Positions 10,424 to 43,592 of a DNA stretch of 64,000 nucleotides are shown one piece after another. The translations under genes and the position numbers were made by a program. Numbering within the stretch: the first letter of the stretch is position 1; every line of letters starts with the position of its first letter. The notes below the pieces were generated by a model that was not told where the DNA came from, did not search any database, and saw nothing but the letters and a program-made list of their open reading frames with translations. Origin of the DNA: Geothrix sp. (GTDB taxonomy: Bacteria > Acidobacteriota > Holophagae > Holophagales > Holophagaceae). Where the stretch lies: contig NZ_CP126625.1 of NCBI RefSeq assembly GCF_030219325.1, forward strand, positions 3,398,857 to 3,462,856, given 5' to 3'.

Positions 10424-11611
10424 ATGCGATTCACGGTCCGACTCACTCATGCCAACGGGGAAGTGCTGGTGCGCGAGTTCGAGGCGGACAGCGCCGAGAG
10501 CCTCCGGGCCCGCGTCCTCGCCGAAGGTGGCTTCCCCCTCGCGATCACCCGGACGGACACGGCCTTCCGCAGCCGGAACCAGCTCAAGACCGAGTCCCTC
10601 GTGCTCTTCAACCAGGAGCTGCTGGCCCTGCTGAGGGCGGGCATCCCCCTCCTGCAGTCATTGGAGCTGCTGGTCGGCCATGGCAAGGATGTCCAGCTGC
10701 GCCGCAGCCTCACCCAGGTGGTGGAGCTGGTGCGGGAGGGCATGTCCTTCTCCGACGCCCTGGAGCAGGCGGGTTCCTTCCCGCCCATCTACCGCAGCAA
10801 CGTGGTCGCGGGCGAGCGCAGCGGCACCCTGCCGGAGGTGCTGGCCCGCTGGCTGTCCTTCCAGAAGTTCGCGCAGACCAGCCGCCGCCGCATCATCGAG
10901 GCCCTCTTCTATCCGACCTTCCTGGTGCTGGTCCTGATCCTGGCCCTGGGCGTGATCTTCAACGTGGTGCTGCCCCGCTTCGCCGAGTTCTACGCCGGCG
11001 GCGACATCGAGATGCCCTTCTTCACCCGGATCCTGCTGGGCGCCGGCAAGTTCGTCAGCTCCACCCTCTGGTTGCAGGGCCTCATCCTCATCGGCCTGGT
11101 CGTCCTCGGCCGCTGGATGGTGGCCTCCGAGGCCGGACGCAAGCTGGCCGAGCGGCTGCTGCTGATGCTCCCCAAGGTGGGCACCCTGTACCGCATGTAC
11201 CATTCCAGCGTCTTCTGCCGGACCCTGGGCGTGCTGCTGTCCGGCGGCCTGCCCGTCGTGCAGGCCCTGGAGGTGGTGCAGCGCACCAGCCCCAGCGAGC
11301 GCATGAAGGCCGGGCTGCTCCTGATCACGGACAAGGTCCGGGCCGGCAGCAGCCTCCACCTGTCCCTGGAGCAGGCCAAGGTCCTGGATCCCCTGGCCGT
11401 GGAGATGATCCGCGTGGGCGAGCAGAGCAGCGCCCTGCCCGAGATGCTCGACCACGTGGCGAACTTCTTCGATTCCGAAGTGGAGAAGGCCACCACCGCC
11501 GTCACCAGCCTCATCGGCCCCGTGCTCATCCTCTTCATGGGCGTCGTCGTCCTGGGCCTCCTCCTCGCCATCTACGTGCCTCTGTTCAACGCCAGCAGCA
11601 TGGTTCGCTGA
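10424..11611 (+). CDS. Type II secretion / type IV pilus inner-membrane protein, GspF/PilC family
   Basis: 395 residues with the typical duplicated T2SSF layout: a short N-terminal domain (about 1-55), a first cytoplasmic helical bundle (about 60-160), membrane helices near 165-187 and 215-235, a second bundle (about 240-355) and a final helix (LIGPVLILFMGVVVLGLLLAIYV). The family signature GERSGTLPEVL and its repeat RVGEQSSALPEML are visible. GspF/PilC is the platform protein that couples the cytoplasmic ATPase to pseudopilus or pilus assembly. No other secretion genes flank it, so its system lies elsewhere. It is followed by a two-hairpin terminator module and a convergent gene. Confidence 0.88.
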   Translation: MRFTVRLTHANGEVLVREFEADSAESLRARVLAEGGFPLAITRTDTAFRSRNQLKTESLVLFNQELLALLRAGIPLLQSLELLVGHGKDVQLRRSLTQVVELVREGMSFSDALEQAGSFPPIYRSNVVAGERSGTLPEVLARWLSFQKFAQTSRRRIIEALFYPTFLVLVLILALGVIFNVVLPRFAEFYAGGDIEMPFFTRILLGAGKFVSSTLWLQGLILIGLVVLGRWMVASEAGRKLAERLLLMLPKVGTLYRMYHSSVFCRTLGVLLSGGLPVVQALEVVQRTSPSERMKAGLLLITDKVRAGSSLHLSLEQAKVLDPLAVEMIRVGEQSSALPEMLDHVANFFDSEVEKATTAVTSLIGPVLILFMGVVVLGLLLAIYVPLFNASSMVR

Positions 11612-40953: not shown

Positions 40954-42549
40954 ATGAAGATCATCGTGACCGACGAGGTGACCGACGAGGGTCTAGCCCT
41001 GCTTCAGCGGGACCCGCGGGTCACGCTGGACGTCTGCCTCGGCCTGTCCAAGGAGGCCCTGCTGGGCTGCATCGGCGAGTACGATGCCATCATCACCCGC
41101 AGCGGCACCACGGTGGACAAGGCCCTGCTGGACGCGGCCACGAAGCTGAAGATCGTGGCCCGGGCGGGCGTCGGCATCGACAACGTGGATGTGGGCTACG
41201 CCAGCTCCAAGGGCGTCATCGTGGTCAATGCCCCCTTCGGCAACACCAACAGCGCCGCCGAACACACCCTGGCACTGCTGCTGTCCGCCTGCAGGCACAT
41301 CCCCGCCGCCAACGCCAGCCTGAAGGCCGGCGAATGGAAGCGCGCCAAGTTCACGGGCGTCGAGCTCAAGGGCAAGGTGGCCGGCGTCATTGGCCTGGGC
41401 AAGGTGGGCGGGCGTGTGGCCACGCGGCTCAAGGCCTTCGAGTGCGAGGTGCTGGGCTGCGATCCCTACATCGCCGCCAAGCGGGCCCAGGACCTGGGCG
41501 TCCGCCTGGTGGGCCTCGACGAACTCTGCCAAGCCTGCGACATCATCACCGTGCACACGCCCCTGAACGACGAGACCCGCGGCATGATCGGCATCCGCCA
41601 GCTCACCCGCATGAAGCCCGGAGTCATCCTGCTGAACGTGGCGCGCGGCGGCATCCTAGAGGAAGGCCCGCTGCTCGAAGCCCTGAAGACGGGCCAGGTG
41701 GCCCTGGCCGCCGTGGACGTCTGGTCGGAGGAGCCCCCGGCCACGCCCCTCCTCAAGGAGCTCATCGCCCAGGAGCGCCTGGTCGTCACCCCCCACCTCG
41801 GCGCCAACACGCAGGAGGCCCAGGTCAACGTGGCCATCGACGTCTCCCGCGAGATCCTCAACCACCTGGACCGGATCCCCATGGAGAACGCCGTCAACCT
41901 GCCCCGCTTCGACCCGGCCGTCATGGACCAGATGCGCCCCTACTTCAAGCTCATGGCCGTGCTCGGCGAGTTCGGCCTGCAGCTCATGAAGGGCAACCCG
42001 GACCGCATCACCTTCGGCTTCGACGGCGCCATCGCCCAGCACGACTGCTCCCCCCTGACCGTCAGCGGCCTGGCCGCCCTGCTGGACCGGGTGGCGGATC
42101 AGCCCGTGAACATGGTGAACGCCGGGCTCGTGGCCGAGCGCATGGGTCTGGTGGTGGAGGAGCGCAAGTCCACCCGGGGCGGCGCCTTCTCCAACCTGGT
42201 CACCCTCAAGCTGGACGGCCCCGGCGGCTCCCGCGTGGTGTCCGGCACCCTCTTCGAGGGCTCGCCCCGCATCGTGGGCCTGCGGGACTATGCCATGGAC
42301 TTCATGCCCGAACCGCACATGCTCCTGCTGAGCTACCTGGACCGCCCCGGCATGATCGGGAAGATCGGCACCGTGCTGGGCCAGCACGACATCAACATCG
42401 CCTTCATGAACCTGGGCCGCCGGGAGAAGAAGGGCGAGGCCATGGTGGTGCTCTCCGTGGATTCCCCCGTACCGCCGGCGGTGGTCGCGGAGCTCAGCCG
42501 GGTCACCGAGGCCACCTTCGCCCAGGCCCTGCACCTGCCTTCGGCCTAA
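40954..42549 (+). CDS. serA: D-3-phosphoglycerate dehydrogenase
   Basis: 531 residues from ATG 40954 with GGGGGA upstream; the longer frame back to 40876 is not needed. The first enzyme of serine synthesis, long form: NAD-binding GLGKVGGRVA, the catalytic Arg region NVARGGI, the Glu and His of the triad in WSEEPP and TPHLGANTQEAQ, an intervening domain (about 320-450) and a C-terminal ACT domain (DRPGMIGKIGTVLG) that probably binds serine. The stop TAA is immediately followed by MITE-like element 3, which separates it from its two-hairpin module. Confidence 0.93.
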   Translation: MKIIVTDEVTDEGLALLQRDPRVTLDVCLGLSKEALLGCIGEYDAIITRSGTTVDKALLDAATKLKIVARAGVGIDNVDVGYASSKGVIVVNAPFGNTNSAAEHTLALLLSACRHIPAANASLKAGEWKRAKFTGVELKGKVAGVIGLGKVGGRVATRLKAFECEVLGCDPYIAAKRAQDLGVRLVGLDELCQACDIITVHTPLNDETRGMIGIRQLTRMKPGVILLNVARGGILEEGPLLEALKTGQVALAAVDVWSEEPPATPLLKELIAQERLVVTPHLGANTQEAQVNVAIDVSREILNHLDRIPMENAVNLPRFDPAVMDQMRPYFKLMAVLGEFGLQLMKGNPDRITFGFDGAIAQHDCSPLTVSGLAALLDRVADQPVNMVNAGLVAERMGLVVEERKSTRGGAFSNLVTLKLDGPGGSRVVSGTLFEGSPRIVGLRDYAMDFMPEPHMLLLSYLDRPGMIGKIGTVLGQHDINIAFMNLGRREKKGEAMVVLSVDSPVPPAVVAELSRVTEATFAQALHLPSA

Positions 42550-42817
42550 GAGGTCGTAACAAAACCCCACGGCGCCGCGCGAGGGTCGCCGGGCGAGCCA
42601 GGCGAGGAACGCGAGTCAAAGCGTAGCGGGTACTACGCGCGACGAGCGTGACGCGGCATCGCGACGCCCGTCGGCCCTCGCCCGGAGGGAGAAAGCCAGG
42701 TGGGCGCCCCGCGGCGTCAGGGCCCTTGAACGATGTCCCGCATCGCCCTGCGGGCCCTTCCTTGCGGTGCATCCCACCTGGCTTCCTCGCGACATCGTCG
42801 GGTTTTGTTACGACCTC
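42550..42817 (+). mobile_element. MITE-like element 3 (268 bp, inverted-repeat ends, no gene)
   Basis: Ends GAGGTCGTAACAAAACCC and GGGTTTTGTTACGACCTC are exact inverse complements over 18 bases. Shared blocks A (42591-42608, GGGCGAGCCAGGCGAGGA), B (42641-42659, GACGAGCGTGACGCGGCAT) and C (42746-42765) appear in the same order as in elements 1 and 2. Between A and B is the hairpin GCGTAG-CGGGTA-CTACGC (42621-42638). It abuts the serA stop codon on the left; the right flank AAATGCC continues as the start of a two-hairpin module, so the insertion came between the two. Confidence 0.78.
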
Positions 42818-42824
42818 AAATGCC

Positions 42825-42913
42825 GTCCGGAGGGGACCGCCTGCTCGCTGACGCTCGCGAAGTCCCCCCCGGACCCCCCCACCGCGCGGCATGGCAAAGC
42901 CCTGCCGCGCGGT
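42825..42913 (+). repeat. Two-hairpin 3' module D, formerly next to serA
   Basis: Hairpin 1 pairs GTCCGGAGGGGAC (42825-42837) with GTCCCCCCCGGAC (42862-42874), 12 of 13 pairs. Hairpin 2 pairs ACCGCGCGGCA-GGC (42881-42895) with GCC-TGCCGCGCGGT (42899-42913) around AAA. The 5' lead AAATGCC, the loop end CTCGCGAA and the C-rich linker match modules A, B and C. No T-run follows here, so termination would be weaker. Confidence 0.6.
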
Positions 42914-42941: not shown

Positions 42942-43592
42942 TTGAAACTCATCGCCTGGGACTTCGACGGCACCCTGGTGGACAGCCGTCCCCTCATCGA
43001 GGCGGGCATGGCCCACGCCCTGGACGCGCTGGGCCAGCCGCGTTCCGTCATGGCCGAGTGGCTGAAGTATGTGGGTCTGCCCGTGGAAGCCGGCATCCGC
43101 CACACCTTCGAGCCCCTGGGGCTGGATGGCCCGACGGTTCTGAAGGCCTACCGCAGCTTCGGCCATGCGGAACACGAGCACATGATGCAGCCCTTCGAGG
43201 GCATCCCCGAGCTGCTGGTGGAGCTGAAGGGCCGCGGCCAGCGCATGGCCGTCGTCACCTCCAAGCGCCGCCTGCCCCTGCTCCGCCAGATGGCCCAGTG
43301 GGATTGGGAGCCCCTCTTCGACCCCATCATCACCCCGGACGAGGTCACCCACGGCAAGCCCCACCCGGAGTCCCTGGAGCAGCTCCAGGCCAGGACCGGC
43401 TTGGCCGCCGAGGACATCCTCATGGTGGGCGATACGCCCTTCGACCTGGACATGGCCCGGGCCGCCGGGGTGCCCAGCCTGGCCGTGGGACATGGATTCT
43501 ACGATCAGGAGGCCCTGGCCGCCTGTGGCCCCCGGGCCTACGCGCCGGACACCGCCGCCCTGAGGGACATCCTCCTCGCCTGGAGCGAATGA
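42942..43592 (+). CDS. HAD superfamily phosphatase (phosphoglycolate phosphatase/PpaX-like)
   Basis: 216 residues from TTG 42942 with GGGAGG five bases upstream; an ATG at 42891 lies inside hairpin 2 of the module and is unlikely. HAD motif I DFDGTLVDS, motif II VVTSKRR, motif III Lys in HGKPHPE and motif IV GDTPFDLDMA are all present, with a helical cap domain. These enzymes hydrolyse phosphoglycolate, pyrophosphate or similar small phosphates; the substrate is not determined. The stop overlaps the moaC start (ATGATG). Confidence 0.88.
   Translation: MKLIAWDFDGTLVDSRPLIEAGMAHALDALGQPRSVMAEWLKYVGLPVEAGIRHTFEPLGLDGPTVLKAYRSFGHAEHEHMMQPFEGIPELLVELKGRGQRMAVVTSKRRLPLLRQMAQWDWEPLFDPIITPDEVTHGKPHPESLEQLQARTGLAAEDILMVGDTPFDLDMARAAGVPSLAVGHGFYDQEALAACGPRAYAPDTAALRDILLAWSE

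Follow-up and report, generated by a model that had tools for sequence, protein, structure and literature searches.

Behind serA in a Geothrix sp. genome, a 268-bp MITE-like element is inserted between the stop codon of the gene and an older two-hairpin 3' module, and the element is present at this junction in only one of the 30 Geothrix genomes compared. The whole explanation proposed here, namely a trans-mobilised MITE-like insertion into the TAA stop codon of serA, with an exchangeable core, a chimera formed by gene conversion and arms kept alike by template switching, is considered highly probable. The window is the whole stretch of DNA that was analyzed (64,000 nucleotides), and all coordinates refer to it.

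The features of the insertion site are as follows:

40954-42549, plus strand: serA (phosphoglycerate dehydrogenase), whose TAA stop codon at 42547-42549 is the left copy of the target duplication
42550-42817, plus strand: MITE-like element of 268 bp, defined by its sequence, its copies and its end repeats
42550-42567, plus strand: left terminal inverted repeat GAGGTCGTAACAAAACCC, 18/18 complementary to the right end
42800-42817, minus strand: right terminal inverted repeat GGGTTTTGTTACGACCTC, ending at 42817
42579-42681, plus strand: internal hairpin A, bounds approximate (alignment positions 30-132, consensus fold of 102 copies)
42689-42788, plus strand: internal hairpin B, bounds approximate (alignment positions 140-239, same consensus fold)
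42818-42820, plus strand: AAA, presumed to have been TAA and to be the right-hand copy of the 3-bp target duplication (from the joins of relatives and the TNA duplications of other copies)
42821-42913, plus strand: serA 3' module of two hairpins, TCCGG...CCGGA and ACCGCGCGGCA...TGCCGCGCGGT (from its sequence and the junctions of relatives)
42942-43592, plus strand: next gene, a HAD-type phosphatase, TTG start assumed

The gene name serA is taken over from the first-pass annotation, and the downstream gene is presumed to be of the HAD type on account of its motif DFDGTL. That annotation had placed one element exactly between the serA stop codon and the module, which is borne out, as GAGGTCGTAACAAAACCC starts directly 3' of the TAA and AAATGCCGTCCGG, directly after 42817, begins the two-hairpin module, the terminal repeats pairing perfectly over 18 bp. 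Its remark that other modules of the window lie close to stop codons likewise stands, since those at 11610 (plus strand), 48307 (minus) and 55026 (minus) adjoin, or trail by a few bases, TGA, TGA and TAG. In each of these three, a hairpin of the TCCGGGGG/CCCCCGG type precedes a GC hairpin and its T run, an arrangement resembling an intrinsic terminator; no such T run is present in the serA module.

Copies, fold and pairing of the ends

The serA element is a repeat rather than a chance structure, as a search of its own genome (the 3.73-Mb contig containing the window) gives 16 matches at about 14 places: L001 to L008, L009 with L014 (a single copy interrupted by an additional hairpin), L010 to L012, L013, and L015 with L016. 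Matches are found in 44 of the 47 Geothrix genomes and in 59 of the 77 genomes of the family; in the nearest relative (G018) there is a single weak match, and most other members of the genus have several to 25. The plasmid search for the element returned no match, the Rfam search on seven loci gave three matches, all far below gathering scores, and the literature searched, on Geothrix and wider, yielded no description of this element family. The many dispersed copies, the empty sites, the target duplications and the 18/18 terminal inverted repeats of the serA copy are those of a MITE. The element is a MITE-like non-autonomous element, the label "MITE-like" being used because no autonomous element sharing the GAG/TNA ends was found in the genomes searched.

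Folded as single-stranded DNA, the element reaches -90.5 kcal/mol (z = -6.5, equalled by 0 of 200 shuffles), and the consensus of 102 copies is a three-way fold made up of a terminal stem, P1, and hairpins A and B, with plentiful double changes in the stems. The two ends change together. The same heptamer stands at both ends in 88 of 103 end-defined copies, a set that excludes L010-L013, L009, L228, L278 and any copy not starting with G or having fewer than 15 of 18 pairs, and on which counts lean upward because the ends were allowed to shift by up to 8 bases to improve complementarity and the match of the targets. Sixteen different heptamers occur, a few rare ones among which may be shifted end placements, and the pair at P1 position 4 is T-A in 51 copies, C-G in 32 and G-C in 17.

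A rival reading takes the element for a structured RNA, or for a portable terminator working in both directions, that selection retains behind genes, its spread being secondary. P1 is a GC stem with A-rich and T-rich flanks, pattern matching gives a terminator-like site on one strand only (minus, 42584-42565; shuffles give a mean of 0.5), the 50-nt form folds into a 22-bp hairpin of -37.6 kcal/mol, and the abundant double changes would also be expected. However, mismatches in P1 are nearly balanced (G-T 59 versus A-C 54) and separating the copies according to which way the adjacent gene runs gives no G-T excess on the transcribed strand, so that P1 carries no sign of one-strand RNA selection; moreover, none of the seven loci reaches the gathering score of an Rfam family, and the insertions at all three sites tested are private to one genome. 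RNA selection on P1 is thus not supported, and this explanation of the element as a whole is regarded as rather unlikely. The mismatch counts point to a pairing of P1 that is kept at the DNA level. On the fold strand, hairpin A has 62 G-T versus 21 A-C mismatches and hairpin B 121 versus 17 (38 versus 17 without the pair 157-219), and from this G-T excess the core may have an RNA role.

Inverted repeats are known to be homogenised by switching of the template from one arm to the other (PMC8604942), and the arms of P1 probably stay complementary by such switching within the hairpin. A separate transposase for each end type is a less attractive alternative for the matched ends, because the end types are many and the transposase genes few.

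Target sites and the source of movement

A perfect 3-bp target duplication flanks 30 of the 103 end-defined copies, fitted as stated above, and in 29 of these 30 it is a TNA (13 TAA, 13 TTA, 2 TGA, 1 TCA and 1 TAG in total). Where ends were placed by alignment alone, with no fitting, perfect 3-bp direct repeats were obtained in 10 of 29 copies. The duplication is imperfect in the remaining 73 of 103, the serA copy being one of them: here two of three bases match, and the duplication is backed by the joins found in relatives. The flanks read Y-TWA-R, with TAA as the left flank in 28 of 103 copies and TGA in 12. According to the portion of PMC12016507 that concerns targets, members of the IS1031 group prefer TNA and produce an exclusive 3-bp repeat, a rule that the perfect duplications seen here fit.

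Considering these left flanks, and a gene-like stop codon exactly adjoining 45 of 115 GAG-type copies (39%), the element might be thought site-specific, aimed at stop codons and hence at gene ends. Yet 15 of 44 non-disruptive TWA sites in the window abut a stop without any aiming (34%; a control based on heuristic gene calls, 53 genes covering 86% of the window, and on one window only), so that there is little excess to explain, and 70 of the 115 copies, the L002 site included, have no gene-like stop exactly at either end. Targeting of stop codons was rejected on this comparison and is held to be very improbable. In GC-rich DNA such as this, TWA is scarce, and a third of the TWA sites that can be hit harmlessly are stop codons, which explains why stops are hit; chance and survival thus suffice to place a TNA element exactly behind serA.

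The transposase responsible was sought by end patterns in the window's own genome, in 47 genomes of the genus and in 77 of the family, and by the transposase families PF13340 and PF01609 combined with detection of ends, and none with GAG/TNA ends was found by these searches. PF13340 has no match in the own genome or in copy-rich genomes such as G003, which holds 18 element matches and a match to neither family, and the one PF01609 match of the own genome has no detected end repeats. All end motifs in the own genome with at most one mismatch belong to known copies. In the 47 genomes of the genus the end pattern, which is blind to ends continuing with C (the pattern applied to the 77 genomes covers those in part), gave five matches, four being known copies and the fifth a 406-bp pair in L198. 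The mover either comes from another transposase family or is gone.

REP/REPIN sequences, which are associated with the RAYT tyrosine transposase, offer a further model, in which a Y1 (RAYT) transposase would act on single-stranded hairpins. Strong hairpins, extragenic location and many copies would suit this model. RAYT elements, however, are not known to make a target duplication on insertion, while duplications are present here and their 3-bp TNA form fits a DDE transposase, and movement of the REP/REPIN kind is accordingly thought to be very unlikely.

Empty sites and the order of events

The junction between serA and the HAD gene was compared in 30 Geothrix genomes including the window's own, all 30 loci being checked by blast; the protein identity of the serA orthologues is 75-97% (full-length Geothrix matches). 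The element occupies this junction in the window's genome only. Among the 29 relatives, five have the module without the element (G006, Geothrix limicola Red804; G027; G009; G001; G008), two have a partial module (G046, G017) and 22 have no module. One of these 22, G004, has a different long insertion; its serA and HAD gene are separated by a 391-base spacer (L078).

Since five relatives have the module and lack the element, the element is younger than the module and has moved, as the first-pass annotation had proposed. That annotation had also named the sequence expected at an empty site: deleting exactly 268 bases at serA leaves CCTAAATGCC as the join, that is, a TAAATGC in which the stop codon runs into the module. 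The joins of the five module-bearing relatives are CCTGATGCC, GCGTGATGCC, CCTGATGCT, GCATAATGCT and CCTGACGCG, or, at the boundary of stop and module, CCTGA-TGCC, GCGTGA-TGCC, CCTGA-TGCT, GCATAA-TGCT and CCTGA-CGCG. The stop codon is followed directly by TGC in four of the five, with one A fewer than in CCTAAATGCC. The prediction thus held in that the relatives lack the element (0 of 29) and the stop codon of the module-bearing ones runs into the module, but it was off by one base. Read to the letter, the refuting condition set in that annotation, an empty site differing from the predicted join, is triggered by this single base, for which the 3-bp duplication accounts. The true empty site is one base shorter because the insertion duplicated a 3-bp TNA target: as we infer from these joins, the event comprised 268 bp plus a duplication, with TAA on the left and a TAA mutated to AAA on the right, and the unoccupied serA site would have read stop-TGC, not TAAATGCC.

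The nearest relatives, G018 and G025, read TAATGGA and have neither module nor element, so that the relative ages are read from species further away. Their state implies that both have lost the module, and exactly this TAATGGA would result if the stretch between the ATG repeated in TAATGCC and in CATCATGG had been deleted. An element ancestral at serA and lost precisely from every other genome, although losses can in principle occur and the module appears to have gone from the nearest relatives, is hardly credible, as 0 of 29 relatives carry it, four of the five module-bearing ones read stop-TGC without a trace, and many precise losses would be required.

Two further insertion sites of the own genome were compared with relatives, and the element is absent from all 29 relatives' loci at L008 and likewise at L002 (0 of 29, one of which, L381, could not be anchored). 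At L008 the own genome reads CTGA-element-TAAACCCGGAGTATCC and G029 reads CTGAACCCGGAGTATCC, which is the join expected after removal of the element and one 3-bp duplicate. All three insertions tested (serA, L008 and L002) are therefore private to this genome, in agreement with the earlier claim of real movement. In relatives without the module, G004 aside, serA and the HAD gene are 20-56 bp apart, from which the two may be co-transcribed; in the window's genome the element places a long hairpin between them.

Probable exchange of ends and cores, and likeness to known systems

The core of the serA copy is identical at 205 of 210 positions to that of L002 in the same genome, which has GAGTGCC ends, and its P1 is identical at 57 of 58 positions to that of L236 in G027, which has GAGGTCG ends and a core matching at only 174 of 210. 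By these identities the serA copy combines two lineages in one chimera, its ends and its core having different histories. Among 75 copies with common end types, 49 have the same heptamer as the copy nearest to them by core, versus a mean of 21.5 and a maximum of 36 with shuffled labels; ends and cores hence go together in the majority of copies, with the serA copy among the exceptions. A quick core tree of 90 copies with nine end types requires at least 33 end-type changes, a figure that serves as a hint only.

Seven loci (L401, L404, L408, L412, L413, L414 and L415) hold core-less copies of 49-53 bp, four of them with perfect 3-bp repeats, and judging from these the ends alone seem to be the moving part. 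Other copies measure 128-204 bp or 309-331 bp, besides the 406-bp pair. L009 of the own genome (contig C1, about 2695450-2695762) is 312 bp long, with an extra hairpin inside core hairpin B, and similar lengths of 309-312 bp occur, with different end types, in L228 (G001), L278 (G008) and L422 (G007). In G071, from another genus of the family, the ends GAGGTGG...TAACAAAAC stand on elements of 331 bp (L420, partly related in its core) and about 270 bp (contig C165).

Related cores also stand between ends of other kinds. The own copies L010-L013 have a core 72-82% identical to that of the serA element, but bear the ends and CTAG targets of other IS5-type elements: those of L010-L012 match L341 (G024, contig C487), an IS5-type insertion sequence with CTAG targets, and those of L013 match an IS5-type insertion sequence of G030 (L282-L302), also with CTAG targets. 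These classes do share their ends with an autonomous element.

In the mechanism that we propose, a DDE transposase of the IS5/IS1031 kind would have been supplied in trans by a source element no longer in the genome, would have cut at the GAG ends and would have inserted the element into the TAA trinucleotide that is the serA stop codon. The left TAA would have remained an intact stop codon, leaving serA unharmed because the 3-bp target is duplicated, and the right copy would have landed before the old module and later become AAA. The mobile part would be P1, since copies of about 50 bp with P1 alone still carry target duplications, and the two-hairpin core an exchangeable cargo. Gene conversion between copies is the simplest way in which GAGGTCG-type ends would have come to flank a core from the GAGTGCC lineage, and the P1 arms would change yet stay complementary, probably through template switching in the hairpin. 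A stronger version is put forward only tentatively: the hairpin of about 50 bp would be the mobile unit, its arms co-evolving by hairpin-templated copying, its cores swapped among several transposase systems, and its harmless insertion into stop codons by TNA duplication leaving a terminator-like stem behind.

The serA insertion itself is ordinary; the coupled ends, the chimera and the core-less forms are moderately interesting. At this site a small mobile element can be followed cleanly, with empty sites and a dated order of insertion, and a seeming aim at stop codons is explained without any aiming, by a TNA target in a GC-rich genome and a duplication through which the stop is restored. Through its co-varying ends, chimeras and core-less hairpins, the family lends itself to a natural test of whether transposon ends are kept alike by template switching, which can usually not be told apart from transposase specificity.

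With the bacterial MITEs ERIC, RUP and Correia (PMC2229807) and MITEAba12 (PMC6382973) the element has in common its short length, the lack of a protein, terminal inverted repeats, a target duplication, a whole-element fold as a stem and a presumed foreign transposase. In contrast to them, it is GC-rich, 268 bp long and folded three ways, duplicates TNA rather than TA or 9 bp, and has no partner found for its family, whereas MITEAba12 has a resident one (PMC2229807, PMC6382973). The family differs further in its variable yet complementary ends and its core-less 50-bp forms. Tourist-type MITEs, those of PIF/Harbinger, are eukaryotic and duplicate TWA. Their 3-bp duplication (PMC2213677) is shared with the element, a likeness of mechanism only. 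The IS1031 group of the IS5 family, as represented by ISLrh in the part of PMC12016507 cited above, shares with the element the TNA target, the 3-bp direct repeat and ends starting with GA; the serA element differs from it in having no transposase and in its end sequence beyond the first bases.
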